From: Pseudisothecium myosuroides
Taxonomy: Eukaryota; Streptophyta; Bryopsida; Hypnales; Lembophyllaceae
Direction: 5' to 3'
DNA: 64,000 nucleotides
NCBI GenBank assembly: GCA_951799445.1
Contig: OX637293.1
Location: 26,040,001-26,104,000 of the forward strand
This document shows, piece by piece, positions 12,361-60,490 of the stretch; position 1 is the first letter of the stretch, and each line of letters starts with the position of its first letter. A program made the position numbers and the translations under genes. The notes beneath the pieces were generated by a model. It saw only the letters and a list, made by a program, of their open reading frames with translations. It did no database searches and was not told the DNA's origin.

Positions 12361-12767
12361 CACATAGCAAAAATTTCACACAAGTCAAGGAAGCAATGTC
12401 CCCTACATACAAAGGATAAAAGAGTGAGTATAAAGGTACGGTAGTTCAAATTAAGAATTTTTGGTTTTGTAAAGACCAAATTGCATGATATGCCATATTC
12501 TTACCCGAGTAGAGATCCCCAAGGTCTAGCTTGTTCTTACTGATACTAATTTTACTTGTACCAAAATCATTGAGTTTGAATAAGCTAGTTTCGCCTACAG
12601 TCTACCAAACCAATGTCACCTCATCGTCTTTTCACCTTGCCTAGGATATTTGAGCATAAGTTGTGGATTTATCTTTGACCAGCACATGCTGAAAGAATCT
12701 CTTCCATTCAGAATGGCAAGCAAATTTGTCAAAGTAGTAATTAAAATCACTGCAATAGTGGGAAATT

Positions 12768-13310
12768 CCTAGAAATTACCCAACTTGTGGTAAAATCTCA
12801 CTAAAAATCAGATTAGCTTTTTTTATGCTAATAAGATTCCCCACCAAGTTTCAAGACATTCCGATAGCCAAAAGTGCCCAAACTGGCGAGATTCCCCGAA
12901 AATTAGCGAAATTGGAGTTTACGGTGGAGTTGACTTGCATACCGGGAGCATACGAAATCAGAATGAAGTCAAAGCTAGGTCTTTTCTTACTCCCCCATAC
13001 CTACTAAAGAACCTAGGCTAGTTACTTTTCTCAGAAAAGTCAACCTCCAAGATTTGGATTTTTACCCCGTTTTGGCATTCAGTTAGCGGTAGGTTATGTT
13101 GCATTTTTTGGAATTTGGTTAAGGGATGGGGGATTCCCCAGGAGTAAAAATGGCCTTCTAAAGCCAACGACGCAATCGGTTTTCAATTTGGAATTAATCT
13201 CCAAAAGTTAGATGTTTGGACCAGCGTAGAAAGTCAAAAATTGAAGATTAGGATGAAAATCTTAGTCGATAAGTTTACAACTTAGGAAAAGAGGCATTAG
13301 AAAAATAATG
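12768..13310 (+). mobile_element. LTR fragment related to the large gypsy element
   Basis: This stretch aligns by eye with 45838-46380 in the same order. Shared words include AAAATCTCACTAAAAAT, GACATTCCGATAGC, a GGCGAGATTCC word, TAATCTCCAAAAGTTAG and AGGATGAAAATC. It covers only the part of the LTR upstream of the TATA box. The TATA box, mini-exon and LTR end are absent, so it is a truncated piece. Confidence 0.8.
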
Positions 13311-16510: not shown

Positions 16511-16519
16511 GTGGATTTG

Positions 16520-17480: not shown

Positions 17481-17482
17481 GC

Positions 17483-20900: not shown

Positions 20901-22339
20901 AAGATGATTGATTGTACCTGTTGGCGTGATTTGATACAGTTATACCATAGTTCTTTGGACTTGTTCAACGTCGACAAAAAAAGAGTTATTCTCTGTCAAT
21001 TTCACGTGCATTGAATCTTTTTTTTTTAATCCTTTTTTTGAAGGAAACTCCATTGCATTGTTGATTGAATAATATCCACCAACGAAATCAGCTAGCTTTG
21101 AGTTCATTTCTCTTCGAAGAAGAGAGATATGATATGGCTTTGGAAGGCAACCGATACGTAAACCTTGGCCTGCAGCTTTAGCACCACTGACAAACTTCTT
21201 GTACACTGCAGCATATGCACCTTCAGTATTTCCAGGTCTGTCACATGCTGCCAAAATCTCAAAAGCTCCTACTTTCTCGCCAATCTTGCAAAGATACTCA
21301 TTAGTTACATCGATGCCCACTGATTTTAAGGCAGGAGAGTTCAACATCGACTTTACTTCAGTCTTTGAAAAAATGCTTGCAAGAAGTTTTCCTGATTCTA
21401 CTTGCTGTTCTTCTGTACCGTGGAGTCTCTTCTTTTCATGATTAAGCGCATTGCTTGCTCGAATTTCTTGTACACTTTTAGGTGCTAGTATAGATCGAGC
21501 TATTCCACGCAATTTTTTTGCGTGACCACCTGTTGGTGACAGAGTAGATATATCTCTGCGCTTCCGAATCTGCCTTCGATATCCATATGGGGTGGATTCA
21601 ATTCGGGACCATTTCTATTGCAGTTCAGACAAACTTTTCAAGGTTTGCTCGTGCTCTATTTTTTGTTTCTGAAATTGAACTGCATGATTGAGTTCTAAGG
21701 ACTGTAGTTTTTCAGCATGGTCTCTATTTAAGATGTCAATGTCTGATTCAAGAGCGTTCTCTGCTTCCATGCTTTCTTCGAGATCTTTCGTCAATGCACA
21801 AATACGTTCATTGTGTGATTCTCTTAAAGTATTTAAAGTACTTTCTAGCAAACAAGTCTGTGCAAGGACTCGTTGCAACTCTGCTTTTGACACTTCACAT
21901 TCTACGACAAATCTACACTCTGATTCCCTCAAACTGTTGAGCTCATTGCTCTGTTGCAATAAGGAGGAAGTAAGATCGTCAATACTTTGCTGCATGCTAT
22001 CATTTTCGAGCAGTAATTGTCGTTTTTGCAAGTCTAGTGATTTTGCAGAGCCTTGTAATTGTAGTGCATAGCCTAACAGTCCATTCTCTCCCTCTGCAAC
22101 AAACTCTAGCAAACTTCTTATATTTGAAAATTTTGGGCGTTTTCCTGATGAATCCGGAGGATAAATTGACCCTTCTAGCCACAGATCAATGTTACAGTCA
22201 CCAGCATTTTGTCTCTGAGCAAACTCAGACTTTGGATTTTGCTCATGAATCAAACGGCCACGTCGAATCAATGGGCGATACTTTCCATCGATTGATACCT
22301 GGACCTTGTGAGGTGGTTCCCCTACATTGTCATCCATCT

Positions 22340-23215
22340 CCTACATTCCACGTTTACATGCAAATTTTTGCAACTAAATTGCACACACCTAGTCTGGTTG
22401 CTAATGAGGGTTTGTGATCAGTATTTGCGTGACAATGCAATATTAAAAACTCATAAAAGGATTTCAATGATACCAAGGATAACACAAACTGTCGCACTAA
22501 TGTAAAATTGGCTTCAGGTCAATTCATCAGCAATTTCTAATTCAACGTACTGAGCAACCAACTCACCAACTCAATTGATCACTCAACCATTTGGTTTCAA
22601 TTTCAGAACTTAGCAAGTTTCTGACTGAACTGAAGAAGCAAATCAGATAGTGAACAAGTTCATAAATTCTATTTTTGGTAAAGCAATTGAGTGAGTTTCA
22701 AACTTAATTGAACTGAAGAAGCAAGGCAGTGAACAAATTCGGTTATCAGTAAAACAACTGAGAAAGTAGACTCAACAGGCAATTGACGTACTGAACTGAA
22801 TAAACTTCAGCAACCAAATCAACTTGCAAAATCCATGTTTCATTGTTTCAGTTTCAACATCAAATTTTATTATAGACGTGCTGAACCGCAGGCAACCAAG
22901 CAATTTTTTGGCGCTTTACTTGAATTGAACATAAGCCCCGCCAAGCAAAGCCGCAAAGAAGCAAAGTCTTACTGGCGCGAAATAAATGGCGCCACATAAA
23001 TGGCGCGGAGTGCACAGATGAATGAAGAATCTGATATTGAGGCAATCAAGGTCATGATTATTCAACGGGCAGGTGAGATCAAGAACCAATCAGCGTCGTT
23101 CTTGAAGAGCTGCCCCCATGATTGCCTGCGCGAGAATAGGAGATTACTGTGGCCTCGCGATATAGTTAAGTACCCTATTTCACAATTAAAAGATTATATT
23201 AACGATCTTTATTAG
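22340..23215. other. Upstream region of the minus-strand gene, E2F-like sites
   Basis: There is no gene here. Words such as GAACTGAAGAAGCAA recur near 22630 and 22720. TTTGGCGC lies at 22907-22914, and GGCGCGAAA (inverse TTTCGCGCC) lies at 22974-22982. Further GGCGC words follow to about 23008. These match the plant E2F site consensus TTTSGCGC. They sit about 570-670 bp upstream of the ATG at 22337. Confidence 0.4.
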
Positions 23216-23257
23216 GCCTCATTTTCTTTATAATGGGGGTGAGCACCCTTGGAAATG

Positions 23258-23265
23258 TATATAAG
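23258..23265 (+). promoter_or_regulatory. TATA box of the LTR remnant
   Basis: TATATAAG is preceded by GTGAGCACCCTTGGAAATG. It is followed by GGGGGC and a CT-rich stretch. The block corresponds closely to 46421 in the large element. Confidence 0.6.
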
Positions 23266-23736
23266 GGGGCTCATTTTCCTCTCACAAACACCCCTTGTAG
23301 CCATATTTTGGCTCATTTTACACAATTAGGTCCATTTAGTTGGATTTTGGCCGTTTTAGGCCATGTTGTCAAATTTGTGTGTTTTTGAAGCATTTTTAGC
23401 TTCATTGTTGGTGTTTTTGGAGCTCTCTTTGAAGGACATTGGGGTCCTTTCAAAGCTTGCTCTTACTTATCTTGTTGTGGTTTATTGCTGGTTTATTGCG
23501 TGGTTCTTATTACTTGGCACTAATCCTAGAGAACGCCCCCTCCATACCTTGGCGATGCCGCTTAGAGGGCCCTCTAGTGCCTAATTGTTGTTGCATGGGC
23601 TTAAGTGGAGACTCTTTAATTGAGAAGTTTTTCCTAAGTTTGTGTATATGTGTTATTTGGCCTTGGTTAGGTGCTAGTTAACTCTTGACGTGGTACTTCG
23701 GCTTCTCTTGTGCCCCGGTTCTATAGATTTTTCCTT

Positions 23737-23985
23737 GCACGGCAAAGCTTTGACTTTGCTTCGTTTGAGTTGTCTTAGAAAATTGGAGATTTATCAAAGC
23801 ACGGCGAAGCTTTGACTTTACTTTGTTTGAGTTGTCTTAGAAAATTGAAGATTTATCAAAGCACGGCAAAGCTTTAACTTTGCTTCGTTTGAGTTACCTT
23901 AGAAAATTGGAGATTTATCAAAGCACAGTGAAGCTTTGACTTTCTTTATTCCAAGTTTAGTTTCCAAAACATTTGTTGTGAATTT
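23737..23985. repeat. 62-bp tandem array in the LTR, four copies
   Basis: Units start at 23737, 23799, 23861 and 23923. Each opens with GCACGGC(A/G)AAGCTTTGA, or GCACAGTGAAGC in the last, and contains TTAGAAAATTGGAGATTTAT. Confidence 0.9.
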
Positions 23986-24129
23986 CCAAGTTTAGCATCC
24001 AAAAACTAGTACTTAGCCCCCAAGGTTCACATGTGATTTAAACCTTTAGCCCCCCCCAACAAAGAAACGAGCCTTGTTGTAGAATATTTAGAGAGAGACC
24101 AAATGTGAAAGAATTGAGCAGTTGTCCAA

Positions 24130-24340
24130 GAGCCCCAGTAAGCAAACTGCCGAGACCCCAACCCATCCAGAGCCCTAGTAAGCAAAACTGCCGAGACCCC
24201 AGTCCATCCAGAGCCCCAGTAAGCAAAACTACCGAGACCCAGCCCAGCTAGAGTCTTAGTAAGCAAAATTGCCGAAACCTAGCCCATCCAAAGCCCCGTA
24301 AGCAAAACTGCCAAGATCCCAATACATCCAAAGCCCATTA
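24130..24340. repeat. About 41-bp tandem array in the LTR, five degenerate copies
   Basis: AGCCCCAGTAAGCAAA-like words begin near 24130, 24171, 24212, 24252 and 24292. Each is followed by a CTGCCGAGACCCC-like word. Confidence 0.8.
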
Positions 24341-25105
24341 GGAGACCCCAGCCGTGAAAAAGAAATTGCCGGTCGCCTCCTAATCAGGAGTCGCCACGTG
24401 GCCGCGCGGGAAAGGGGTCGGACCAACCGGAAGTCGCCACGCGTGAAGGGTGCCGGTCGGGGTTCGGGAGAAGGGCCCTGCCGTATGGACTGATGGTCTA
24501 ACTGCCTCGTTCTGGCCAGTCCGTGAGTCAAAATTGTTGGAATAGATTTGGAACTCAAGCAAAAATTAGCACTAGAAGCAAATCGCTTAACATTCTAAAA
24601 AGAACATAGAATTAGCAAGGAAGAAGTAGGATTTAATAGGTAGGAAGTAATTAGGAAAGGAAATCTTGGGTGCAACATTTTTATTGCCAAAATTCTCTAA
24701 AGTAGTATGGTAGCTCTCAAAACTCAAATAAAGTAGAATGGAAGTAGAGAGAGATGAAGTGACAATTTAGAATTATGAAGTGGCAATTTAGAAGTTGAAG
24801 AGGATTTAGGAAGAGATAGGATTAGGCGGAAATCTAGGAAGAACAATTAGAACCATCAAAACTTGGATAGAATAATAATTGACCAAGGAGTTGAAGAGGC
24901 AATTATTATTGGAGAGTTGATTTCAATTATTTAGTTCAAGATTAGTCAACCCTTTGAAGTATAAATAATTGAATTAGAATAGTATAGAAGAGAAAGAGAG
25001 ATTAGAAGAAAAAAGAAAAGAAAAGTGAAGTTCAATAAATTGGCAAACCTTGTACTAAAACCCCTACTTTAAGTCGTGGGCAAAACTACCAAACAATTTT
25101 GAAAC

Positions 25106-25168
25106 ATGGCAAACGACAAGGAGTTTGAAGGGGTACACAATTATCTAAACAATGACACCAACTCCGAG
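25106..25168 (+). CDS. 21-codon LTR mini-exon ending at a splice donor
   Basis: An ATG at 25106 opens 21 sense codons rich in acidic residues and asparagine (NNDTNSE at the end). GAG|GTAAGC, a consensus donor, follows. If unspliced, the frame closes three codons later. The related LTR has a mini-exon of exactly the same length and ending residue at 48563-48625. Here no downstream ORF exists, so this copy is an orphan. The shared length, start and donor suggest that selection once acted on it. Confidence 0.5.
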
Positions 25169-26379
25169 GTAAGCTCCTAACTTTAAACCATCCATTTCAA
25201 TTTCTCAAAATAGGCATTTACAATTAGGACCGAACTCTTAAGCCAATTCAGAGTGTTTAGAATAGGAATATTCCAAAAACCAGGGTAGTAGTGTGGTAGA
25301 GTCTAGTTAGAGGTTTCCCAAACCATATCACACTTAGGATTTGGAGCTAAAACGAGTGAGATATGGGCGGATGAAGTTTATGAATAATATTGGATGAAAA
25401 TTAGTACATTTCATCCAAATGGAACAAGAATAGAAACTTAGGTAGAATCATAAATCTAGACTCTAGAAGTGAAACAAAAATTAGAATTCAAGTTGTAGGT
25501 TAGTAGAAAACCATGGATGAAGTTTGAAGTACCGATTAGCGGTCAAACTTCATCCATTGATAACTCCTAGTAGGAAGGTCCAATTAGCACGTGTCTTAGC
25601 ATTTTGGAAAGCTAGAATTAAGACTTACAAAGAAAAATTAACAAAAAATCTAAAAATAGTAATCTGCTCAGAGTAGCACCGAGCCATATAAGTAGGATAA
25701 AGATCAAATAATCACTAAAAGAGATAATCAAATAGAAGAATTAGATTTGGAGATAGGTATAAGGCACTTAGTAAAGTCCAGAACTAGTTTAACTTAGGAG
25801 AAATTCTTAATCATTTAGTAGCAACCAATGGATGAACTTTGGATTAGGATATGGATGAAATAGGGTAAAACTCATCCATCCAAGTCCAAACTTAGAACTT
25901 AGGTAGAAGTTTGCAATATAGAATCAGAGTCAAAAACTTGAAGTAAAATAGAATAAGGAAAGGGTTTAAATCTAAGGATGAAGTTTGGATAGACTTATAG
26001 AAGCTAGAACTTCATCCGTCCATAACTCTTGCTAGGAAGGTCGCATAATGTTGAATTTTATATTTTTAGAAATGGCATGAAATTCTCTATCTTTATGTTT
26101 GGCTAAATTTAGATTGTATCACCTTTCTTTCAAAAACCACCGTGGCCTAGTTGGTACGACCTAATTAGAGTAAAACTTGCAATTTAAGTTAGTTTTTCTT
26201 GATTTCTTAGTTTGTCTTGCAAACTTGTGTATGTTTAGGATTTAGAAAAGATCTACTGCTTGGAAGGCACAATAGATTTACGCTAGGCACCCATAGGACA
26301 AAAATCAAACCTAAAACTCAAGAGCCTGGTTGTACTCACTTATTTACCGAGGGTGGGTAAATAAGCGCTCACAATATTG

Positions 26380-33522: not shown

Positions 33523-34062
33523 TCAGAGTAGAAACGATCCCAAGTTCATGAGCGCCTTGAATTCCCGAAAGTTGACCATCTGGTCTCCGTCATCGTCTAC
33601 GCACTGAATCATACTTCGGCAATCTTCCACCGACACCGTCTCATCGCCGAAGCCCACCAGCACGCCGTGCAGCTCCTCTGCGGAGATGAAGCCATTCTTG
33701 TCCAAATCGAAGACATTGAACGCCGACTGCAATTGAGCCGCGTCCCCGGCACTCGACCCCACCTCGACGTCTTCCACTGGCCGCGGGGACAGGACCATCG
33801 CCCGCGTGTTCAAGTCCATGAACTCTTGGAAGTCGATGAAGCCATCGCCGTTCGCGTCCACCTCGCGCATCAGCTGCTCGATCTCGACGTCGCTCACCTT
33901 CTGCCCCAGCGAACGCACCACCGCGCCCAGCTCTTCCTTGCTGATGCGGCCGTCGCCATTCTGGTCGAAGTAGCGGAACGAGTCCGTGAGCTCTTGCACC
34001 AACTGAGGAGGCAGGTTCAGGTCGATGCGCGGACCCATGGAATCCGTCCTCGCGTACTCCAT
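33523..34062 (-). CDS. Calmodulin-like protein with four EF-hands (179 aa)
   Basis: This is a calcium-sensor protein of the plant CML family. It would change shape on binding calcium and regulate partner proteins. Four EF-hand loops are visible: residues 33-44 (DQNGDGRISKEE), 69-80 (DANGDGFIDFQE), 119-130 (DLDKNGFISAEE) and 156-167 (DDDGDQMVNFRE). Each has acidic residues at positions 1 and 12. The fourth is least canonical, with methionine at position 7. The linker after EF2 (LSPRPVEDVEV) is longer than in calmodulin. The chosen start is the first ATG in the frame (34062). A second ATG at 34038 would give 171 residues and begin MGPRIDLNLPPQ. There is no intron, as is common in this family. 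The gene is markedly GC-richer than its surroundings. Confidence 0.93.
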   Translation of the reverse strand: MEYARTDSMGPRIDLNLPPQLVQELTDSFRYFDQNGDGRISKEELGAVVRSLGQKVSDVEIEQLMREVDANGDGFIDFQEFMDLNTRAMVLSPRPVEDVEVGSSAGDAAQLQSAFNVFDLDKNGFISAEELHGVLVGFGDETVSVEDCRSMIQCVDDDGDQMVNFREFKALMNLGSFLL

Positions 34063-45147: not shown

Positions 45148-45987
45148 TTGTCACTTGGGACTCGTAGAATTATTTTTTTGGAAATTTGCAATTTAAGTTG
45201 ATAAAAGTATAGAAAAATCCATAAAAAGAGTGTAGAACCGAAATAGGGTTGTGTCATACCCATTATAGTATTTGGTCTAGATTTCTGTTTTTTACTTAGA
45301 ATCCCCCAAACCTTGCCTAAAAATGGTATAAAAATAACGGAAAGGTTAGATTTGGAGGATTCGAGTCACACAGCCCCAAAAGGGCTAAATCCCACTATGA
45401 ATGTGGCGATTCATGGCTAGGTCGGTCCGAGGGATCCACAGCGAGGCCACTAGGTCGGGTCCTAGAGTTAGATTTAGAATTCTCCATTAGATCGACGAAT
45501 TCCCAAAATCCCGATTGTTAGCATGTAGGAGCCACTCACGCAAGATCGGGCCTGTGAGGAATCTACAGCCCCAGGATGGTGTTCTAGGATGAATCCCATG
45601 CCAGGAGTCCAGCGGCGAAATCGGTTCGCCAAGATTCCTCCACCTGCAGAAGATTCCCGCACCGTCGCTAATTCAAGGAGATGTCCGGTTTAAATCTCCA
45701 TTGACCAATCGTGTCAGGTACGGAAACACACCCGCACGTCTTTCATGCGACTCCCTGAGAGGTCACGTGAAAAATCCCGGCATCTTCCGACTTGCAGAAG
45801 AACCTTTTTCCGGGTGGTCAACCCTCCTAACCTCCAACGGGAATTTCATGGAAATTACCCAGGTTACAATAAAATCTCACTAAAAATTAGACTAGCTTGT
45901 TTTATGTTAATAATGCGCTTCGTGAAGTTTCACGACATTCCGATAGCGGCAAGTACCCGAACCGGCGAGATTCCTCGGGAATTAACC

Positions 45988-46010
45988 ACGTGGCGGGGTC
46001 CCCGCCACGT
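45988..46010. promoter_or_regulatory. 23-bp perfect palindrome containing G-box/ABRE words
   Basis: ACGTGGCGGGG, a central T, then CCCCGCCACGT. CACGTGGC at 45987-45994 is a plant G-box/ABRE-type word. It lies about 410 bp upstream of the LTR TATA box. The LTR remnant carries GCCACGTGGC at 24393-24402, but there it lies downstream of TATA. Confidence 0.45.
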
Positions 46011-46420
46011 TGACCGGCATTCCGGGACTATACGATGGCGAAACGAAGTCAACCAAAAGTCCTTCCCAACTCTCTCGCACCTACCGGAGACCCTAGGCTA
46101 TTCACATTTCTCAAAATAGGAGACCCCCAAGATCTAGGATTTTACCACGATTTGGTTTTTAAACTAAATTAGCCTACGATGGGTTTTTGGCCTCGGTACG
46201 GGAGGAAGGGGATCTTGAACTAAACACGGCGTTCTGGATCCAACGGCGCAATCTGTTCGGCGATTGGAGCTAATCTCCAAAAGTTAGGATGTTGGTCCAG
46301 CATAGATGGTAGAAGTAGAAATTTAGGATGTAGGATGAAAATCTTTGAGGATGAGGATGAAAATCCCCGTTGATAAGGTTACCTTAGAACTCTAGAGGAA
46401 GGGGTGAGCCCTTGGAAACC

Positions 46421-46428
46421 TATATAAG
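46421..46428 (+). promoter_or_regulatory. LTR TATA box
   Basis: TATATAAG sits in GGTGAGCCCTTGGAAACC TATATAAGGG and matches the same block near 23258. Transcription of the element probably starts about 30 bp downstream. Confidence 0.65.
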
Positions 46429-46859
46429 GGCCCCATTTCTCTCTCTAGAACACCTCCAATTCTTGTTTTGGATCCGTGGGTCCAAGTTATTTTGGATATT
46501 TTGGCGTTTCAAGCCAAAAACCTCTATGGTGTTTTCGGAGCACTTTTGGCTCCATTGTTGCTTATTTTCAAGCTTTGAAGGTCCTTGGGGGTCCTTCAAC
46601 CTTGCTTTGTGTACTCTTTTGTGCAGTTTTTGTACTTTGTTGTAGGTGGAGAGCCTCTCTCTTCCTCTTGTACGTGTTGTGATCTAACTTGTGAAGTTAA
46701 GAGTCTTTTGTTTTGTATCTTGCACTAATCCTAAAGTCACCTCCCACCGTACCTTGGCGATGCCGCTTTGGGGGGCCTTTAGCGTGTGAGCGTTGTGTTG
46801 CCACGTGATCTAACTTGCCAGTTTTTCCCTTTGGAGTTTTTTTTACATCCTCTTCTAAT

Positions 46860-47330
46860 ATTCTCCTTGTTGAGTGGACCCCCCTCTGGGACGGCGAAGC
46901 TTTGGACCTCCTTGTACATGTTTTTGCTAAAGTTCTTCCAAACCCTTTTCTAATCTTCTCCTTGTTGAGTGGACCCCCTCTGGGACGGCGAAGCTTTGGA
47001 CCTCCTTGTACATGTTTTGCTAAGTTTTCTTCCAAACCCTCTCCTAATCTTCTACTTGTGAAGTGGACCCCCCTCCGGGACGGCGAAGCTTTGACCCTGT
47101 GTGTGTGTTTTCTTTTAAAGTTTAGTTTTCCCTCTTCTAAAGTCTCTCCTCTTGTGTGGACCCCCCTGGAAAACGGCGAAGCTTTGAACTAGTGACAAAG
47201 TAGAGTCCTAAAGCGTGTGTTAAAAGTGTAGACGGCGGAGCTTTGAACCCCCGGGGTGTCAAGAAGTCCTAAAGTTGGTGTTAAAACCAATTTGACGGCG
47301 AAGCTTTGCATCTACCCCGTGTTTAGTTCC
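46860..47330. repeat. About 94-bp tandem array with GACGGCGAAGCTTTG core
   Basis: ACGGCGAAGC begins at about 46891, 46985, 47080 and 47173. Shorter units begin at about 47231 and 47295. The core word is shared with the 62-bp array at 23737, although unit lengths differ. Confidence 0.88.
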
Positions 47331-47499
47331 AAAGTCTAGTTTTCAAGACCTTTGAGGAAACCTCCAGAGTTTAGCTTCCAAGATATGTAGGTTTCTTTGC
47401 ATTTGTTTAGAGTAGTGTCTTCAAAAGTTTTATGTAGTTTAGTTGTTTCCAAGGTCTTAGTAAGTTTAGTACCCCCGACGTTTATTTCCCCCATTAGCC

Positions 47500-47645
47500 T
47501 TAGCAAAAATCCAGTCTTAAAATAGCCTTAGCAAAAACCCAGTCTTAAAATAGCCTTAGCAAAAATCCAGTCTTAAAACAGCCTTAGCAAAAATTCAGTC
47601 TTAGATAGCCCTAGCAAAAATTTAGTCTTTTAGCCTAGCCGGAAA
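47500..47645. repeat. About 30-bp tandem array
   Basis: TAGCCTTAGCAAAAA(T/C)CCAGTCTT-like units occur five or six times. Confidence 0.85.
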
Positions 47646-47654
47646 TTCAGTTTA

Positions 47655-47880
47655 GACAGTCAGCAACATCGGGACCAGCATACAGCAGCAACATCAGGAC
47701 CAGCATCCAGCAGCAACATCAGGCCAGCATACAGCAGCACCATCGGGAGCCAAAAAAAAAAAAACATATAAAAAAATTAATTAATTAATTAATTAAATTA
47801 ATTTTTGACCAGCCCAGCCAGCCAGCCGGAAGCCAGCCAGCCGGAAGCCAGCCAGCCGGGAGGTGGTGGGCAGGCTCGGG
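47655..47880. repeat. CAGCAACATC array, TTAA microsatellite and CCAGCCGGAAG repeats
   Basis: Four CAGCAACATCAGGACCAGCA-like units are followed by an A-run and a TTAATTAA microsatellite near 47778-47803. Repeats of CCAGCCAGCCGGAAG then run to about 47860. Confidence 0.8.
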
Positions 47881-48562
47881 GTCCAGCACCCAGCCAAATT
47901 GGTCGCTCTTTTTTGAACTCAAATTTTTTGGTCTTTTTGGGTTCTGGTTTTTTGGGTTCTCTCAAACTAACGCAAAAATCAGACCTAAAACACCACAAAA
48001 TTGTAGGACTAACCTATTACTAGCTAGGGAAGGAGTAGGATTAGGGTTTAAATCAAAAAAGGAGAAGGGAGAAAAGAGCGGAGCACCACCGTACCTGCAC
48101 ACAAATTTGTTTCACCACTCACACCTACACACAATGGAAGGAAATTAGGGGGAAGGATGTGTTATAGGAGTGGAGAGGAGAGAGACGATAAATAGTGCCT
48201 AGCTAAGAGATTAGGTAGGAAATCTAGAAGAACTCTTTGCAACCGTTGGGAGGAGGATTAGGATGACACAAAGCAAAGTTGCGTAAGAGGGTAGGATTCT
48301 CATTTAAAACTTCACGAAGTTTGAGACTAGAAGCGTAAGACCACCATCACCACGGTTGGTGGAATAGTTCAAGAGTAGAAGGAAGAGGAGGAGAGAAAGA
48401 AAAGAAGAAGGAAATGGGGGGAAAGGGTTAGAACATCATACTTGTAAAACGTTTTCTTTTCTACAACTTAAGCCGTGGGCCTTAAAAAATAAAGCAAAAA
48501 AATAAAAAAATAAATAAAGACCATAACCCAAAAATAAAAGAAGACGATCGCGAGTGGCCACC

Positions 48563-48625
48563 ATGGAGCACGAGGACGCGCACGTGGACGGGGATGACGT
48601 CATTTCCGACACTAGCAGTAACGAG
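48563..48625 (+). CDS. 21-codon LTR mini-exon supplying a start codon
   Basis: The ATG at 48563 lies in GCCACCATGG, an ideal initiation context. Twenty-one codons follow, mostly acidic (MEHEDAHVDGDDVI, then SDTSSNE), ending GAG|GTGGGT, a usable splice donor. Without splicing the frame stops after three more codons. The LTR remnant carries an exon of the same length with the same final residue and a better donor (25106-25168). The exon ends in phase 0, which fits the acceptor ATGTGAAG|GGC at 50303/50304 in front of the ATG-less ORF. The intron would be about 1.68 kb and would remove the LTR end and primer site. The function is inferred. Confidence 0.5.
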
Positions 48626-48699
48626 GTGGGTCATTAAACTAATCCTAGTCGTTTCTCCCTACTTAGCATTTGTTTTTTCCTAATCAGCCCTTAGAGCGT

Positions 48700-49870
48700 G
48701 ATTAGCATCCGAGATTAGCGTGAATTAGAAGTTTAGATTCAAAAGTTGATAGATTAGGAATAGAGGTTTTCGAAAACATCTTATAATTAAGATTTGACCG
48801 TAAACTGACCGCGTTAGGCTAAGTTAAGCGGTAGGGGGTAGAACGGAGGAATTTTAATAAAAATTGAACCACAAGAAACAATGGACGGAAATTAGGATTA
48901 GATTAGAAGGAGAATTTAGGATAAAAATTAAAGATCAATGAACGGGTAAAAGCCTAGAATTAAATTAAGATTTTAATTAGGGAAGTTAAAATCCCAAAGT
49001 CGGAATTTGGAGTTAACTTTGGGAAGTAAAAAGTAGAATAGGAAATAGAGGTCAAAAGTAGAATCCACTTAGGAAGTAGATTGTTGAGTTAAAAATAGAG
49101 TTAAAATTAGAAGTCAAAACCCTAGGGTTAAAAGTTGGAATTAAATTTAGGAGGATAACATTTAGAGCTAATCTAGGATTAAAACGATAGGATTAAATTT
49201 GGAAGTAGAAGTCAAAAGTCAAAAGTCAAAAGATTAGATTAAATTAAAAGGTTAAATTTTAGTCAATTGAGGAGTAAAAAGTGAGAGTGAAAAGTTAGAA
49301 ATAGAAGTAAAATTTTAGAGTTAGTAGAAAAAATCTAGAGTCAAAGTGAAAACGTAGAGTCAAACCTAGAGGTTAAAATTGGGGATGAATTTTAGAAGTA
49401 AAAATTTAGAGTTAAAAGTCAAAAACCTAGAGTTGAATTAGGAGTAAAAATCTACAGTGAAGAGGGTAAAAATCCTAGAGTAGTTTAGAAATAAGAACAT
49501 AGAATTAGAGGTGAAACTTAGAATTATCTTAGAAGGTTAAAACTTGGAAGTTAGGAGTCGAAGTTGATTTAGAAGTAAAAACCTAGAGTTAAAAGTCAAA
49601 CGCGTAGAGTTAGATTTAGAAGGGTAACCTTAGAATAGAATAGAGGAGTAAAATCTTAGAGTTAAAAGTAAACCTAGAGTTAAATTCCGAGGATAAATTT
49701 CAGAGTTAAATTAGGAGTAAAAACCTAGAGTTAAAAGTCGGTAGTTAATATGTAAACCCAAGTTAAAAGAGTAAAAATCTAGAGTTCCATTTAGAGGTTG
49801 AAGATTAGAGTAAGAGTTAAACTTTAAAGTTAGTCCTTAGAGTAGAACTTCTAGGTGGAGTCTTAAAATC
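48700..49870. repeat. Purine-rich quasi-repeat in the LTR
   Basis: Words such as CTAGAGTTAAAAGTCAAAA and GGAGTAAAAA recur irregularly for over 1 kb with few pyrimidines on the plus strand. The corresponding part of the other LTR (24600-26000) is also purine-rich. There is no coding frame. It would lie inside the inferred intron. Confidence 0.7.
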
Positions 49871-50230
49871 CCATGATAGTCTTAGAGGTTCATGGAAGGA
49901 ACATAGGGGTTCCTCTTTTTACGTAGTTAGGGACGTTAGAAATGACGCCAACTACCCAGTCTACCCTCGACATAGGATAGATAGTTAGGGAGTCAGAATT
50001 TTACCATTACCCCTGAGCATTGCAGTTACCTTGTGAGTTACTACATGCATTCTAATTATTCGCTGCCATCCACGACACTTAGGAAACGTTAGCAAAAAAG
50101 ATCCATTGCTTGGAAGGCACAGTGGACCGTGCTCACATCACCCCCATATATTAAAAAATGTGGATAAAGGCATAGAACCTGGTTGGTGTTCGCTCTATTA
50201 CCAAGGGTGGGTAATCTTATGCCCACAGTT

Positions 50231-50250
50231 TTGGTGCGTCTGCCGAGAGC
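50231..50250 (+). other. Candidate primer-binding site
   Basis: TTGGTGCGTCTGCCGAGAGC follows the LTR end after a few bases. It has the form of plant gypsy primer sites of the TTGGCGCCGTTGCCGGGGA type but differs at several positions, so the tRNA cannot be named with confidence. Confidence 0.45.
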
Positions 50251-50288
50251 TGAAAACATTAGATTACAATTGCATGTTTGATTAACAA

Positions 50289-51308
50289 GTGTTGCATGTG
50301 AAGGGCTCTGAAGGGGACTCGGACTCGGGATCATCTGAGCCGTTTTCCAATACTAGGGGCCACTCCAACCTTGAGGTGTGGGCGTCTACTTTCCACGGCA
50401 TCCCCTTCAAGAGTTACTCTGACTTCGAACTTGGCCAGGGAGAAGAAGGCGTTGTCCAGATAATCTCATTAGCAGATTTGGCAACCGGGCCAAGGACGCT
50501 GAAGATATCCTTCGAGTATTGGGCGCATCTGGTTCGCCTCTACCTACACGACCCGAATCGGCATACTCCAGAGATTGCCCACGCAATCGCAGCAGGGTCA
50601 TTCGGGGTACCGTCACACAGTTTCCACAAGCACATCTGTTTCTATTGGCACCTAGTGGTCCACTTTTGGTTTTTCGAAAATCACTATGTGAGAGAGTGTT
50701 TTGGCTCGCGACTTCCATCACATCAGCGGGACGCGCCCTTGCAAGAGCTGCCGCACATCGACATACGCTATAAGGCCCCGAAGCCCCTCTTTGACGGCCA
50801 ATTGTATCGATTCGACGCGTCAGACATCGAAAACCTTCAGGTATCGGAGAATCCCTACACTTGTCTCCAACACTTTCGATCGTGGCACGACCGCGGTGGC
50901 CATCTCACCAAAGAAGGGTGCAAGGGCAGCTCGACCCGCTACGTGCCCTTCCACGCCGCCACCGTGCACCAGCTGAGCTACATCGCCGAATATCACTCAG
51001 CTTGTGAGCCGTGCCAAGACGCCGAAGACATCCGAGTGGCGCTCAATACAGCACCGGGGCTCGAAACTTTGCATCAGCCTTGATTTCACCCTCTCTTCTA
51101 TCGGTACTCGTGTCGGGAAAAGAGGACACGCTTCGTCCGTATCAAGAACGCTACATTCTTTATGAACGAAGCCTCTTGGACTCGCCACCAAGCGTCCATC
51201 GACCGCATCGAGAGGGAACAAGCCCCTTACTTTTTCGAATACCGGCCAACCGCTACGGAGATTGCAGCTAGCTTGGCCCTATATGGGACAGATCTAGTAC
51301 CCGTCTAA
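50289..51308 (+). CDS. Extra ORF upstream of gag, no ATG, one in-frame TGA
   Basis: The frame is open from the stop at 50283-50285 to a TAA at 51306-51308, except for a TGA at 51081-51083 (one step from CGA). It encodes about 335-340 residues. The N-terminus is acidic (GSEGDSDSGSSEP), and the middle holds WAHLVRLYLHDPNRHTPEIA and FYWHLVVHFWFF. The C-terminus holds RHQASIDRIEREQAPYFFEY. No methionine occurs before the TGA, so translation needs either a non-AUG start or an upstream exon. The phase fits the mini-exon at 48563-48625. The position between LTR and gag recalls ORF1 of Ogre/Tat elements. Homology to that protein is not shown. Confidence 0.6.
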
Positions 51309-51426
51309 TATTTCCAGCTTGATTACGTATAGTGTGGATTTGATTTGGTATTTGTATTGTATTGACTTACTATATATATATATGCGTGGATTTGATTGGT
51401 GTATACCTCGACTCGCCTAGAGTTAG

Positions 51427-54400
51427 ATGCCACCAAAGTCTTCCAAATCCCCGAGACCCAAAAGGGTAGCACGACCGAGAGGCGGAGGCGGGAGTTCGTC
51501 CCGACTAACGCCACCAACATCCCCTACGGCATCAATCCGGGAAGACCTTAATTCGCCCGAACCCCTAATAAGGGTAGGCTCACCGGGGAATACAGAAGAG
51601 GAAATCCACCTCCCCGAACCTGTCGAAAGAGTAAGTGCGTCGGACTCATTCGGAGAGATGGACGGCCACGAGCCTCTTAGACCTCCTGCTCCGCTCAACG
51701 CCGGCGATGTTCCGCCAGCAGCGCCCTTCGTACTAGACATCGACCCGATGATGCTACCAAGAAGATTGCCCATCGTGGTACCGGAAGGACTGCGGGAAGT
51801 GCCTATCCCTCACAACCTACCCAGATTTTTGGGGGATAGGGACGATGATCCCACAGCCCACGTGGAAAAGTTCGAGGAAGCTCTCATATCCAGTCTGGTC
51901 ACTAACCCTAGCTACTATTTGATTTGGTTCCCCAGCACGTTGGTAGGAGCAGCTTACTCATGGTATAGATCTCACGGCGAAGGTGTGTTTACCACATACC
52001 AGCAACTTCAGACGGCCTTCCTCCGGAAGTTCCGACCGGCAACGGGGCAACAGCATGCTCTGGCCGCCCTAGACCGGATCCGTAAGGACTTCACGGAGGA
52101 TGTGACTTCCTACATCACGAGATTTCAAATGGTATGTACTCGTTTCGTGGGTAATCTACTCAACAACGACACAATTCGATACTACTTCATCAAGGGGATT
52201 AACAACCCTCCACTCATTCGAGACATTCTGGCACGTAGGCCAGAAACTCTCGAGGACGCTGTCCGCGCAGCATACGATGTCGAACTCATCGAAAAGGAGA
52301 ACGATTGGATGGTACGGCAAGGGTTGGACCCCATCCCAGCTTTCATCCCGGTCCATAACCAAGAGATAAGTATGGGGCCGTACCACTCGACCACCCTCAA
52401 GGTAAATCCACTATCTACCCACGAACCCATGCTAACGCTAACCGCACCTGTCAATGAGTTACGAACAGAGATGCGACAAGCTTCGGGGGACATGACGTGA
52501 GCGGTGCGCGAGCTAGCCAATCAAATGGCGTTTCTAGTTCGAGGACAAGCCCCGCCAGCTCGTCCAAGATACCATGAGTCGGGTCAGCACGCAACCACCA
52601 TGTGGTGCAACCATTGTGGCCAGAAAAATCACACGCCTCCCTTCTGTCCGCTGTTGAAGGACGATCCTCCACCACCACGACCGCAAGAACCACAGCCGTA
52701 TCGACATCCCAATGCCGCACGTCAGGGACGATCCAACCCCGCTGACGGATGTCCCGCTTGCAAGAGGCGACATGCCCCAGGCGACTACTGGGCTCAAAAC
52801 AACATCAGGTGCAAACGTTGTGATGGCCCCCACCCCACGATCCGGTGTACAACGGCGGATAGAGTCATTCCATTGGAATTTCCTAAAGCAGACTACGCCA
52901 AGCAGGCGCAAGACAACCAGAGAGGCGTCCGCTTTGCCGACCCCGTTGTGTCAACCGGACCACCAAATATGTACTATGACCATGCCAACAACAGACAGAC
53001 ACAAAAATCCCCAGCGGCAGTCCAAACTGCCCAAGGTACCATTCCGTTGAACCCAGCGTTGCCCCCTCAAGTGACACAGGATGCGAGGTTTGTGGCAGCC
53101 ACCATGGCAGAGTCCTCTAGGGCTCATGAGTGTCATCGGAGTATGTACGTCGCAGTTGAACCCGAGGGAGTCAAGCCGGCGAAGGATACCTCACATCAAG
53201 AAGTGTTGCCCGCTCTCGTAGTCACGAGAGGAGGAGCACAAACGATCCCTCCTCCACTACCCGAGCCTGGAATTATAGATTCCCCTGATTCTAGTTCCCA
53301 TAGTGGCATTCCCCTGGAATCCTCTCAAGACTCCCCTCAGTTCTCTGACCTCCAAAGTACACTAAGGGACACGGCGAAGGAGGTACGCTCCCACGAGAAT
53401 CTCTCCACTCGCACTGAGATGGACGAGAACAAATACCAATTCGTCCAACAGGGAGATGCCTTCCCTCCCAGGGTTCTTCCCCATCGGCCTAAAGCCCGAA
53501 GAACTAACAACCCCTCTGGCCCCTATGACTTGTGGGAGGATTTGGCACACACCAAGGCAAACATTTCCTTTGGACAGCTGGTCAAGACCTCTCCCGCCTT
53601 ACGCAAGCAGCTAAAGGAGGGGGCCACCATTCCCCGCGCTCCTAAGCTCGCCTCTGTTAACCGAGTTGCGTCCCAAGTCATCCCCGAAGAGCTGGAGTCT
53701 GACCTTGAAGAGTCTACCCCACTAGTCAAGACGTCCCGCAAGAACCTTCGAACCACTTTGGAGAGCTTTGAGGCGGTGGAGATTGAGGTCGAAATAGTCA
53801 ACAAAATCATCCCCCGGACCCTAGTGGATGACGGCAGCGGCGTCAACATCATGCCAGCCTATACCATGCGCAAGTTAGGTCTAGAGATTACGCACCCTTC
53901 TTGCGTGACCCTCAAATGCGCTGATCAGCGATCGGTCAAGACCATTGGCCGAATCAAAGACCTCCGGATTTAGACCGGGGGAGTCGATTACATTGTCACC
54001 TTTGAAGTCTTGCCACTCAACGAGGAGGCCACCAGTCCCTACCCATTACTCTTGGGTCGGGGGTTCCTTTGCCAATGTGGCGGGGTAGTAGACTGGGGGA
54101 AGACCCAACCCACCTTCACCTACGGGCCAACCGAGGCAAGGACGAAGATACCAATTGTCTCCAACGACCCAGCTCTACGGGGGCCCCAAGAGTTCGTATA
54201 CACCACCATCCAAACTATGCAGGCCTCGACAACCACTGACCTAGGTAAGATGAAATGCTTAGGCTTAGGTCTGTATGGGTTGGAAGACAATACGCCATTC
54301 GAGGAATGGCTTCAAGAGCACCCCGACTCCAGCGAAGATGCGTTGGTCATCATCTGCACCTCCGCAATTCAAAACGATCCAAGCACTGCACAAGGTACAG

Positions 54401-55260
54401 CTATCGAAGCCTCCACCGATAGCTTGGATCCAGAGAATGGAGCCGAATTAGCCCCTACACCAGAATCCGGCCAGAGAAGGATACTCAACCACGAGGTCAG
54501 GGCAAATGCCAACCACCACCTTGGCGACGACCACCAAGTCCGACACGTCCTGCACCGAATAGTTGCTCTACGGCCACCACGTTGGCTGCAACTCGGTCCT
54601 GAGGGGACACGGACAGCCTTCACCGTCATGACTTCAGGTATCACTTTTCCCCACCGACGCGGCCCGCTCCAAATCACGTGTTCCCATTGTTCTGCACCTC
54701 CTAGAAACCATTATTGCGACACGGGAGGAACATTGGTCGCCCCCAGCAACGCCCCCCACGTCATGGGTGAAGATCTACCTCCAACTCCAAACACGTCCGA
54801 GCCGATGCGCTGCCAACTCCAAGAGATTGAGGATGGTGACCCGCAACCAGGGGACTATCTCAGTGACGAGGACAACAGCCCTATTGCGATCCGCGATTTC
54901 CCATTCAACTGTCATCCTCCAGAGGGGTGGATTCCGGGAGTACATGGCGAATGGGGAGAAGTCCTAAAGCTGACCAACGAGGAAGAGATTGCCGACACCT
55001 TGTCAGCCATGCACGAGGTAGCAACGGCCTCTGTTGAAGTCATCCCGTACGGAATACACAACGCTCCGCACGCCTGGCAGCAGCAAGTAAGGGCTCTAGA
55101 ACCGCCACGGTAGCAGGAGGAGGACGAGCTGCAGCCACTGGTAAGTCCTGCAGCACCTACCACGCCTGATAACAAAGAGCAACCACCCACTGGCCAGGTA
55201 CTAGGTATCTTTGCCACCACTCTTCTCCAAGCCATGGCTTGTTGGTTTCTGGGCGCCTAA
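51427..55260 (+). pseudogene. Ty3/gypsy gag-protease frame with three in-frame stops
   Basis: One reading frame of 1278 codons runs from ATG 51427 to TAA 55258-55260. It is broken by TGA (52498-52500), TAG (53971-53973) and TAG (55111-55113). Residues about 130-285 form a retrotransposon gag domain (FLGDRDDDPTAHVEKFEEAL, AAYSWYRSHGEGVFTTYQQL). A zinc knuckle C-x2-C-x4-H-x4-C (CNHCGQKNHTPPFC) sits near residue 394. A second cysteine-histidine cluster (CKRCDGPHPTIRC) follows. An aspartic protease lies near residues 785-890, with active-site-like VDDGSGVNIMP and later PLLLGRGFL. The second stop falls inside the protease. No reverse transcriptase, RNase H or integrase follows, so the element is either non-autonomous or has lost its pol region. 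Confidence 0.85.
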
Positions 55261-55870: not shown

Positions 55871-55991
55871 CAACCTGTCAGAGTTAGCGTCATGTGGAAG
55901 ACAGATGACCTTTCACTTAGATTAGGTACTTGTCAGACCGTCATAATAGAAGCCACATAGTCGGATGAAAAGGCGGCTGAAAGTTGACACT

Positions 55992-56275
55992 CGTCCCTTG
56001 CTAGACCGTCGAACCTGCTGATATGCTAACGAGGCGGCTAGTTTAAGAAGGGGCATTGGCGCTCGTCCCTTGCTAGACCGTCGAACCTGCTGATATGCTA
56101 ACGAGGCGGCTAGTTTAAGAAGGGGCATTGGCGCTCGTCCCTTGCTAGACCGTCGAACCTGCCGATGTGCTAACGAGGCGGCTAGTTTAAGAAGGGGGCC
56201 TTGGCGTTCGTCCCTTGCTAGACCATCGAACCTGCTGATATGCTAACGAGGCGGCTAGTTTAAGAAGGGGCACTA
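55992..56275. repeat. 72-bp tandem array, four copies
   Basis: CGTCCCTTGCTAGACCGTCG starts at 55992, 56064 and 56136, and in a slightly changed form at 56209. Because 72 is a multiple of three, the minus strand shows an apparent 24-residue protein repeat. I regard that as a by-product. Confidence 0.92.
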
Positions 56276-56651: not shown

Positions 56652-56919
56652 CATTCTCTCGAACAGCGGAGTGATTTCACAGTCTTCGGGCGCCTGCGCC
56701 CTTCTATCTCCCCCCTGCCCTGTCTTCGTTATCTTCTCCTCGCTTATTTCCCTACATGTCGTCCTTGGTTCACATTCTTCCTCTTGTTCAGTCTCCTCAG
56801 GCTTCTTCTTTTTCAAAACCTGCCCTTGCAGGACGAACCGTCAGTTACCATTCATAGTTGCGCGTCAATTGGAAAAACCGGATAGGCTCCCATCTTCCCA
56901 AAGAAAAGCCAAATTGCAA

Positions 56920-57595
56920 CTGGAAGCATGAAATACCACTAACACACGCCAAGCCCAAAAAAAATTGGTAATGTAATAGAGGCAAGGCTGGAGACAACCC
57001 ACCCCTCGAACCAAGAAAAAATTACCCCCAAGCCGCGACAAGCAGCACCAAAAACAGATACAATAGAGCATCTTCCTATAGAAGATGCCAGACTGAAACT
57101 ACTGTCCCACGAGATACCACTAAGGTTCGCAAAACCCCAAAAAATTGGTAATGTAGTAGAGCAAGATCTGCAGATAACCCTTGAAGCAAAAAATAACACC
57201 CTCAGCCACGGTAAGCAAAGCCACAAACAGGTACGACAGAGAATCTATCTAAAGAACAGACCGACTGAAACTGGAAGCAGGAGACACCACTAATAGACGC
57301 GAAGCCAAAAAAAATTGGGTACGTAATAGACCCATCCACAAAAAAATCCCCCCCACGCTAAAAATAACACCCTCAACACGGCAAGCAACGCCAAAAACAG
57401 GTACAAGACAGAATCTATCTAAAGATCAACCAAATTGCTACTAGAAGTAGAAGACACCACTAATAGACGCAAAGCCCAAAAAAAAATGGGTACGTAATAG
57501 ACCAAGAACTGCAGATAACCCCCCTCGCCAAAAAAAATTGGGAATGTAATACAGCAAGAACTGCAGATAAACCAGATGAACATTGGAATCCTATG
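56920..57595. repeat. About 175-bp tandem array, nearly four copies
   Basis: Each unit has a GGAAGCA-G-GACACCACTAA-type start, then AAAAAAATTGG(T/G)TA(A/C)GTAATAGA and CTGCAGATAACCC, and ends near CAGAATCTATCTAAAG. The minus-strand open frames are repeat by-products. Confidence 0.85.
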
Positions 57596-58088: not shown

Positions 58089-60490
58089 CGTGCCAGACTG
58101 AACACCTGGAACACTTGCTCGCATCCCCTCCGCCAGGTTTGTGATTCCGGGGCTGGTTTCGCGCCCCTGCCTCTGCAAACTTACACTTTCAGCTTTGCTA
58201 GTGTGAGGCAACAACAGCATGATGAAACACTGAGCGCAAGAGGGCCGTCTGGGTGATTCATAAAGGAAATACACCTCTAGAGAAACGATGTGTTAGAAAA
58301 GTGCTTACCACCTCAAAATCTTCTGGTACCTTCTCTTTCCTCCCGGTTGCCCCTTTCTTCTTCACTTGTTGACGTGCTGCCACCATCTTTGCAGACTTGA
58401 GCTTCTGAGCATCCGTGTTCCAGTACGCCATGAGGTTGTTCAACTGGTCGTCGTTGACGTGAGTAGGAGGCTTCTTGCATTGGCCATTATTCCAACGATA
58501 TTTGAGACGAGATCGCTCGGACTTCAAAAACTGGGTGACACAACCATGGAAGCCCACCATGCTCAAGGGATACCCAATGTACTTGAACTCGCCATCAAGA
58601 GCGTCCCTCAGTTTCTTGAGTGTGTGCGGCTTGTGCTTAGACCATTGCACCACGCTGACATCCAAAATTTTTGGCACAAAATCCCTGAGAGCTTCGTCCC
58701 ATGCATTCTTACCTTCACATGTAGCATCCACTTCCCCACCTTCCAGGACAAACACGCGGTTCGGCTTGTTACCTGTTGTGGCCCGGTGGCGACTGCTCTG
58801 CTTGTAGGCCGATTTACATTTCCTCCTCACCAAACGGTCGTCGCTGTTTTGGGACGCCCCAGGGCCACTCTGTGCGGGCCAGGCACCTGAGAAGGGCGCA
58901 CTCTAATTTTGGACGTAATGCCCGGGTACCCAAGCCCAGTTCGGATCAACGGGGGGCTGTGCTGGAGGCGGGGGCGGTGGTGCTACAGCCTTGGCCGGCG
59001 ATGCCACCCGCTGAATTGTCTTCTTCCTCTTCCTCCGGGGGTCCACCAAAGGTTCCTCCTCCTCCTCCTCCAGGTCCAAATTGTCCTCGGAGGAGTCATA
59101 AACATGTTCCGCCAGCTCTGCAAAGGGTGCATTGGCCACACGGGAGGGGTAAGTCGCCTTTCTGTGAGGGCAATTCAGCGGCAACACACCCAAGCTTTCT
59201 GCACTTCCTAAAGCAGATATGAACCCCCCGCAACTTGAATGCAAAGACAATAAAGGCAGAATACGAAAACAAGAGTGCAGCCTAACCCAACGAATTGTAC
59301 CACATCCAGCAGACAAGGGCGCAGTCCATTTCCTATACCCTAAATCCTAAAACCCGAAGCCAATTTCAAAGAATCGTGATGCCAATTTACCTGCGGCTGC
59401 TGCGCCCTTGCGAGATTGCCGCTCAACATGTGTACAAGCAATTGCTAGATGCATCATACCTTTGGCGATGGCCTCGTCATTGGACTCTGTCGCCTCGGAG
59501 AAAGAGTCGTGGCCGCTTGTCATCTCGCAATACTGCGGACCTCGTCCACCCGCCCGCTATGATCTTCGCGACTTCCTCCCCTGTCGTCCTTGAAGGCCCC
59601 GCCGCCGTGAACTCCTCCACACAGGTCCGGATTCTTTGCTCCCCGCAATGCGAGGCTTAGGCGGCTTCAGCTTCACGATTTCCTCCTCATTGCGGCGCAA
59701 CACAAGCTCTACTCATGCTACAGAAAATGGAGCATGACACGCAAGAGTGACGGACAGAAGCAAGCTAATGCGGAAAGCAAGCAACCAGGCGATGGCAAAG
59801 GCGCGAGTGCACTCTCGGCATTCAGAAGTGGAATGCTTAGGGTTTGGCCCCCACCCACCAAGCAGTGTACTCGCGCAGACACTGCGAGGAGGGCTTCCAC
59901 GTGGCCGCGATGGTAATCATACCCGGTTTCTAGTAAACCGACTCCCTTTCACTGCTCCACTACCGGAAAACGACTAAAATATGACTGTTTCCCAGTTGCG
60001 TGAACGTCAGACGTGATGTTACGTGACTTTTCCGGCACTAGGAACCGACTGCTAAAAGACGGCCCATCACTGGAAAAGCCTCTCCCAATGTGTAATAATG
60101 GCGAAACCCTAGGGACGCGCCGTCATTGCGCATTGGGGACTGTGCAATCGTAATTGACGAAGAGAACGGTAAAGCGGTAAAATCCACTCATATCCACTGT
60201 GCTTGCCAAGTCCTGTCGACCTTGGAGAGTTCTGGAACGCCTCCATAGTGCTCGGCAGCCGTGTCTACAGTATACTACTGTTCATGAGAACATGATGACT
60301 CTCTAAAATTTGTGAATGCAGGCGTTTAGGAACCGCGAATCGCAACTTACAACACCATTTTTGCCACCTGCACGGAACCGATCACAGGCTCCAAGGCCTT
60401 GTTCATTTCCGCCACCCGCCGGTCCCGCCACAGCTCATACTCGCTTTTTGGATGCGGAGGATCGTCCGATAGCTCGATCGGCGACTCCAT
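58089..60490 (-). pseudogene. En/Spm (Ptta)-like transposase gene, at least four exons, two in-frame TAGs
   Basis: Minus-strand exons 60490-60368, 59706-59460, 59207-58309 and probably 58274-58089 join in matching phase. Exon 1 begins MESPIELSDDPPHPKSEYEL, the E-x-x-RDRRVAEMNKAL type start seen in plant repeat proteins. Exon 2 has IVKLKPPKPRIAG and PVWRSSR and a TAG at 59557-59559. Exon 3 has an acidic run (residues DNLDLEEEEEE), a proline tract and a TAG at 58903-58905. It then has FVPKILDVSVVQWSKHK and LKSERSRLKYRWNNGQ, and finally QLNNLMAYWNTDAQKLKSAK. The last part resembles the Transposase_24 / Ptta-En-Spm domain. I see no full downstream end. Two stops make it a probable pseudogene. Confidence 0.55.
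59958..59985 (+). other. Unpaired CACTA-like end within intron 1
   Basis: CACTACCGGAAAACGACT resembles a CACTA terminus. I see no inverted TTTTCCGGTAGTG partner. TTTTCCGGCACTAG near 60028 is close but does not end in TAGTG. Confidence 0.25.

Follow-up and report, generated by a model that had tools for sequence, protein, structure and literature searches.

How can a retrotransposon make a protein from a long open reading frame (ORF) that has no start codon? The question is raised by a 64,000-nt stretch of contig OX637293.1 of the moss Pseudisothecium myosuroides (positions 26,040,001 to 26,104,000), which we call the window and number from its first nucleotide. Here a long terminal repeat (LTR) of a Ty3/Gypsy-type element is followed by an ATG-less frame, ORF1, that lies upstream of gag. 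Judged from sequence signals, the start codon is very probably supplied by the LTR itself: a mini-exon inside the LTR would serve as a coding first exon that is spliced in phase 0 onto ORF1. The genome searched comprised 387.9 Mb in 222 contigs, and the window features whose coordinates are written below with two dots are on the forward strand.

The mini-exon, MEHEDAHVDGDDVISDTSSNE, was read directly at positions 48563..48625. It consists of an ATG, in the context GCCACC-ATGG, and 20 further codons, and it runs into a predicted splice donor, GTGGGT (48626..48631; junction GAG|GTGGGT). Unspliced, this frame stops three codons past the donor, after 24 codons in total. The open frame of ORF1 begins at 50286, right after a TAA (50283-50285) and 18 nt ahead of the ATG-less start of the predicted exon (50304..51308), which ends with a TAA at 51306-51308 and in this copy contains an in-frame TGA at 51081-51083. 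Only one of its 335 codons is ATG, and this codon lies at 51162, beyond the TGA. The predicted acceptor AG (50302..50303) is in phase 0 with the mini-exon and leaves GGC TCT GAA in frame. The predicted intron (48626..50303; 1678 nt) encloses the end of the LTR, LTR1, and a primer-binding-like site. A second, diverged LTR in the window (LTR2) has a mini-exon of its own, MANDKEFEGVHNYLNNDTNSE (25106..25168), also of 21 codons, with the donor GTAAGC and the junction GAG|GTAAGC. An earlier note on this DNA had claimed the missing ATG before the TGA, the LTR frame of exactly 21 codons, its counterpart in the diverged LTR and the phase-0 fit, all of which were borne out; its further point, that splicing would remove the LTR end and the primer site, agrees with the predicted intron.

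We defined qualifying mini-exons as ATG-initiated frames of 15-25 codons with at least 30% acidic codons and a donor score of at least 1.5, criteria that were set after the first cases had been seen. On both strands of the window (128,000 strand-bases), the only sequence to qualify was the one at 48563-48625. When the 2.1 kb upstream of the window ORF1 were dinucleotide-shuffled 300 times, a mini-exon arose in 0.3% of the shuffles.

Upstream DNA was examined at 14 further ORF1 loci and at locus L073, using a donor matrix that was chosen, not fitted, and acceptors picked by the analyst. The phase test included 15 loci; L108 was not among them. The mini-exon region of L108, missing from the DNA retrieved for that locus, is contained in L087, a copy of the LTR2 type that has both the ATG and GTAAGC. 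A qualifying mini-exon in phase 0 was present at 10 of the 15 loci, compared to none of the 15 in phase 1 and none in phase 2. Lowering the acidity cut-off to 20% gave 11 of 15 in phase 0, and phases 1 and 2 remained at zero. The per-locus rate of qualifying mini-exons in dinucleotide-shuffled DNA was 0.3% or less (300 shuffles per sequence). Phase-0 mini-exons were found at the LTR1-type loci L098, L099, L106, and L073, and also at L102, L110, L103, and L105; L107 has one of 17 codons under looser criteria, and L111 a candidate of 16 codons. Those at L102 (MEQEDVHADVDKVISDTGSKE), L110 (MEREDVHVDVDEVISDTGSEE), and L103 (MDQVEEFEEVQENRFEDTSPE) have 21 codons, and the one at L105 has 23/24. The length of 21 codons, whose conservation the earlier note had proposed to test, is common, and indel-free within the LTR1 and LTR2 families, but lengths across the divergent types range from 16 to 24 codons.

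The conservation test within one family failed (see below), and for this reason mini-exons were compared between families. The L103 mini-exon was the top match of 2338 positions to the LTR1 mini-exon (31/63 identical), and it was also the top match to two real LTR2 copies (40/63 and 37/63). The mini-exons of LTR1, L102, and L110 align over 63 nt without a gap, whereas the upstream flank of LTR1 aligned to the other two requires more than 120 gap columns. Synonymous changes between these three mini-exons make up 5/13, 7/14, and 5.5/10 of the total, compared to 23-25% expected; the P values are 0.15, 0.03, and 0.02, with rounding involved and the three pairs not independent of one another.

On the acceptor side, the in-frame AG at 16 loci was picked by alignment. 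The window has a branch-site-like sequence, TTGATTAAC, at 50278..50286. At the corresponding place, beginning 18-28 nt ahead of the exon, CTAAC is found at 10 of the 16 loci, CTAAT or CTAAG at two, and TTAA followed by C, T, or A at four, so that 12 of the 16 have a CTAAC-like branch site ahead of the acceptor. At L105, TTACTAAC...TTTTTATAG opens the ORF1 frame exactly. For the 36 pairs among nine loci representing diverged types, the mean ungapped identity is 0.46 over the 28 nt preceding the exon, 0.28 upstream of these, and 0.36 and then 0.29 downstream. The primer-binding-site-like sequence, TGGTGCGTCTGCC... (50232..50249, end nominal), stands just past the LTR end, and its pattern was found at all 16 ORF1 loci. 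It precedes the predicted acceptor by 69-92 nt at 15 loci and by 200 nt at L111, and thus falls inside the predicted intron at every one of them. As read from these signals, diverged families share the putative exon and its donor, the branch-like site, the acceptor, and the phase of the joint.

A genome search with ORF1, in which 147 of 178 candidates were scored, returned at least 149 stretches that match at 33-100% identity, with some stretches belonging to the same copy. Besides the window copy, 27 near-full-length copies are at least 88% identical; in 16 of these the matched part is free of stops, which makes the TGA at 51081 a defect of the window copy and not a trait of the family. The open frame in 15 of the 16 has 331-344 codons. 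In 11 of 13 ORF1 sequences, no in-frame ATG is found between the upstream stop and 30 codons past the start of the match. Nonsynonymous and synonymous distances between the ORF1s of the window and L073 (Nei-Gojobori, NG86) are dN 0.37 and dS 3.4, the latter saturated; purifying selection apparently acts on ORF1.

Methionine codons are scarce in ORF1: five ORF1s have 4 in 1634 codons (P = 2.7e-10 at an assumed 2%), compared to 24 in 1226 codons of the window gag-frame pieces. The same five contain 20 out-of-frame ATGs, against 41.2 expected when synonymous codons are shuffled (z = -5.2). This is the largest deviation of the eight triplets; the z values of the other seven range from -3.0 to +4.5, which indicates that the shuffling misses some structure. 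Taken singly, the five ORF1s give P values of 0.011, 0.010, 0.064, 0.004, and 0.060. Four of the five contain hardly any ATG, whatever the frame, and the 325 codons of ORF1 at L104 have none at all; the exception is L103, with 14 out-of-frame ATGs compared to 18.0 expected. The copy at L105 terminates early, after 290 codons. No shortage of ATG was detected in two gag-frame pieces. The leaders upstream of the mini-exon are also poor in ATG (10 against 16.3 and 12 against 23.4 expected; joint P = 0.0016); of two control regions, one was somewhat low (75 against 90.2) and the other was not (87 against 78.6).

As a single protein query, ORF1 had no database relative; an alignment of two ORF1 sequences retrieved two, both unnamed. 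No Pfam or NCBIfam family matched ORF1, and no plant mobile domain was found in it. There was no convincing sequence relative in the PDB (two chains had E-values of 0.17 and 1.3), and no RNase H family was found in the window ORF1, the L073 ORF1, P0100, or P0101 at E-values up to 10. An AlphaFold2 model from a three-sequence alignment was unusable, with a mean predicted local distance difference test (pLDDT) score of 35. In both database relatives the initial methionine falls on the acceptor position or just short of it, which speaks against a start supplied by splicing. It fits instead the alternative that ribosomes shunt or scan past the leader of unspliced RNA and begin ORF1 at a non-AUG codon, with the LTR mini-ORF a mere regulatory upstream ORF (uORF). 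The scarcity of ATG in ORF1 is what leaky scanning would predict, and ORF I of rice tungro bacilliform virus (RTBV) starts at AUU (PMC5902531). Nevertheless, we regard this alternative as improbable: it does not account for the splice signals (donor, AG, and branch-like site) and the agreement in phase that recur in otherwise diverged families, nor for an open frame that runs exactly into GAG|GT.

Within the LTR families, the mini-exon is intact in most copies. A search with positions 48390-48680 gave 681 LTR1 candidates, of which 40, including the window, were scored and aligned. Neither an indel nor an in-frame stop was present in any of the 40 mini-exons; the earlier note had named stops or frameshifts at the neutral rate in family copies as the sign of a mistaken reading. 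Thirty-eight copies keep the ATG, the exceptions being L044 and L063, and all 40 keep the donor GT. Only the window and L073 continue into the primer-binding-like site; the other 38 adjoin different sequence and would resemble 3' or solo LTRs. An alignment of the LTR2 copy in the window with 20 of the 39 other matches listed revealed no indel in any of the 21 sequences, the ATG in 18, and the donor GTAAG in 21. For the third LTR type, that of L110, there were 1713 first-look candidates, and all 40 scored matched at 97-100%. Genome-wide, the pattern GCCACCATGG was counted 979 times and the reversed control 106 times; four of its first eight places (L001-L004 of L001-L008) are LTR1 mini-exons with 21 codons and donor, and the LTR1 repeat family may account for a large part of the excess. 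Seven loci picked with GCCACCATGG were considered as a background count and rejected, three candidates (L001-L003) being LTR1-type mini-exons themselves. The mini-exon arrangement appears to belong to a large retrotransposon family and to extend beyond the window copy.

Several observations weigh against a spliced coding exon. The expectation that copies of LTR1 would conserve the ATG and donor more strongly than the surrounding sequence was not confirmed: both are kept as described, but the mini-exon is not unusually slow, with 0.317 changes per site, a value matched or beaten by 22% of the LTR windows. The changes by codon position (11, 3, 6) exhibit no excess at the third, and in the LTR2 family many of the changes alter the protein. 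Solo and 3' LTR copies probably decay unconstrained. The LTR1 and LTR2 mini-exons are identical at 26 of 63 nt, and 6 of 3095 positions match equally well. The window donor GTGGGT deviates from the consensus, and the intron is rich in A (38%) and not in U. Ten short upstream ATGs lie between the TATA-like box and the window mini-exon; a nearer transcription start or a further intron might explain them. Mini-exon criteria, donor matrix, and acceptors were all the analyst's choice. No acidic mini-exon was found at L101, and the exon is decayed at L100, L104, and L109: L104 has ATA where ATG is expected, and the L100 sequence starts inside the exon and has lost the donor. With the acidity rule dropped, non-acidic frames from ATG to donor appear at L101 and L109.

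The unexceptional conservation within families, and the 24-codon peptide encoded by the unspliced frame, would suit a mini-ORF that acts as a uORF or cis element and tunes the translation of gag, its splice-like signals being chance or relics. The phase control (10, 0, and 0 of 15) and the shuffles (0.3% or less) argue against this, and an ATG-less frame of 340 codons, under apparent purifying selection, would have no start; we consider it very unlikely. Least likely of all is a mini-exon that serves as the common first exon for several acceptors (ORF1, gag, or pol), with ORF1 one product among others: an AG does stand directly before the gag ATG in seven of nine gag-bearing sequences (window, L112-L115, L119, and L120), but it is missing in L116 and L118, no other sign of a second acceptor was found, and an acceptor at gag seemed improbable to us given the lack of conservation of its AG.

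If the LTR mini-exon is the first exon of ORF1, some of the transcripts that begin in the LTR would be spliced, with the donor behind codon 21 joined to an acceptor about 75 nt past the LTR end. Splicing would join the AUG and 20 acidic codons in phase 0 to the approximately 340 codons of ORF1 upstream of gag. It would also take out the LTR end and the primer-binding-like site, and for this reason the spliced RNA, from which the ORF1 protein would be made, could not be primed in the usual way. The unspliced RNA would retain the site, whose position suggests that this RNA is the template. Splicing, its partial nature, and the division of labour between two RNAs are all inferred from the arrangement of these signals. 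It is possible, although we hold the idea to be somewhat doubtful, that the mini-exon acts as a switch. ORF1, purged of AUG, would yield protein only with the start of the mini-exon and would offer an AUG-poor scanning path to gag on RNA whose mini-exon AUG is skipped; ribosomes could scan through because four of the five ORF1s examined are almost devoid of ATG. Whether a transcript serves ORF1, gag, or genome would then be decided by one choice in splicing, and joints in phase 0 on both sides would allow LTRs and ORF1s to be exchanged between families. If the proposal is true, the LTR has a coding role besides those of promoter and terminator, since it carries the first exon of a protein; splicing, by removing the primer site, parts messenger from genome in a single step. 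Annotation from ATG to stop would then miss or shorten such proteins.

Two LTRs, L073 and L074, lie on the same strand 12.3 kb apart and are identical across the 1849 nt compared; we took them as the two LTRs of one element. This element has a mini-exon, donor, acceptor, and an open ORF1 of 341 codons without methionine, and the identity of its LTRs indicates that it probably moved recently. No gag can be read in the sequence past its ORF1, and the element is perhaps a recently moved, non-autonomous derivative. LTR1-type mini-exons accompany ORF1s that are 43-100% identical to that of the window, and an L110-type match is located about 1.6 kb upstream of a 95% identical ORF1 on C1 (C1:39111886 and C1:39113607). 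Recombination thus seems to have brought LTRs and ORF1s together anew, and the types of both occur in differing combinations at L106, at L110, and at the two places on C1, as though they had been swapped.

LTR1 spans positions 45835..50227 (about 4.4 kb). Its 3' boundary is accurate to within a few bases: the match stops at 50227-50233 in 37 of 39 other genomic copies, the exceptions being L068, where it stops at 50217, and L073, where it continues past. The 5' boundary is approximate and was taken from the alignment to the diverged second LTR. A TATA-like box, TATATAA (46421..46427), is a candidate promoter and has a counterpart at 23258 in the second LTR. The second LTR consists of a 5' part (12745..13265) and a 3' part (23215..26372), both with approximate boundaries, interrupted by an insertion of about 10 kb (13265-23215). 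In the leader region of both LTRs there are direct repeats around a GGCGAAGCTTTG-like core (46837-47191 and 23725-23943) with differing periods.

The gag ORF (51427..52500) matches Retrotrans_gag (PF03732, E-value 4.6e-10) and Ty3_capsid (E-value 3.1e-08). Its frame is interrupted by stops, at the 52500 end, at 53971-53973, and at 55111-55113, and ends at 55113. ORF1, gag, and the LTR of about 4.4 kb are the 5' part of a Ty3/Gypsy-type element: a putative primer-binding-like sequence at 50232 adjoins the LTR end near 50227, and gag is of the Retrotrans_gag type. No match to reverse transcriptase or integrase was found among 17 window frames (two overlapping) scanned with Pfam, and the copy's own 3' LTR was not found inside the window. 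The window copy is defective and decayed; our claim concerns the family, not this copy. Directly before the gag ATG (51366-51426), a TA-rich run is followed by a GGATTTGATTGGTGT-like block. The same arrangement is present in nine of 11 sequences inspected (window, L112-L116, and L118-L120); the other two, L117 and L121, lack gag at this place. The arrangement may represent an internal promoter or some other signal. Beyond the end of the gag frame are a 72-nt tandem array (55978-56272) and a repeat cluster (56856-57573). A frame on the reverse strand (58258-58902) weakly matches plant Transposase_24, with an E-value of 0.0088 that falls under the curated cut-off. Elsewhere, at 33523-34062, the window encodes an EF-hand protein whose closest database relative, with 72% identity, is from the moss Ceratodon purpureus.

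In the env genes of alpharetroviruses and insect errantiviruses, splicing provides a downstream ORF with the start of an exon that lies further upstream. In contrast to ORF1, env is located downstream of pol, and the upstream codons come from gag or the leader and not from an LTR exon. Literature titles and the openings of abstracts, with subscription papers mostly beyond reach, yielded no LTR-encoded start exon in a plant element. As in structure #4 of the moss Tat B elements (PMC10508981), a separate ORF precedes gag (ORF1 at 50304-51308, gag at 51427); however, the upstream ORF of Tat B carries RNase H, and none was found in ORF1. The main text of that paper does not mention splicing, an intron, translation, or a start codon. 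Members of the Tat group, which includes Ogre, commonly have additional ORFs and long non-coding stretches, and Ogre splices a portion of its transcripts (PMC6317226). Its known intron, however, lies between GAG-PROT and RT, and 57% of Ogre elements contain the plant mobile domain that ORF1 lacks in our searches.

Distinct RNA pools for translation and replication, together with partial splicing, have been described for the Copia element BARE1 (PMC3735527). Its 104-nt intron at the end of gag produces a Gag-only RNA and, unlike the predicted intron here, supplies no start codon. Retrosat2, with LTRs longer than 3.2 kb and an extra ORF, ORF0, upstream of gag-pol, is similar in layout (PMC3485330); the parts of that paper used here do not describe start supply by splicing. 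Retrosat2 elements are from grasses and group with Del/Tekay (PMC6317226). By analogy, the closest precedent is ORF IV (P4) of RTBV, a member of the Caulimoviridae, in which splicing of the pregenomic RNA fuses a uORF in the leader to the distal ORF and so enables its translation (PMC5902531). The RTBV ORFs I and II are kept without internal AUG for leaky scanning (PMC5902531). The two systems differ in that RTBV is a pararetrovirus with a distal acceptor, whereas in the moss an LTR element would carry the donor exon in its LTR and the ORF upstream of gag. They have in common an AUG-depleted ORF; the supply of a start by splicing, described for P4 of RTBV, is in the moss element predicted from sequence signals.

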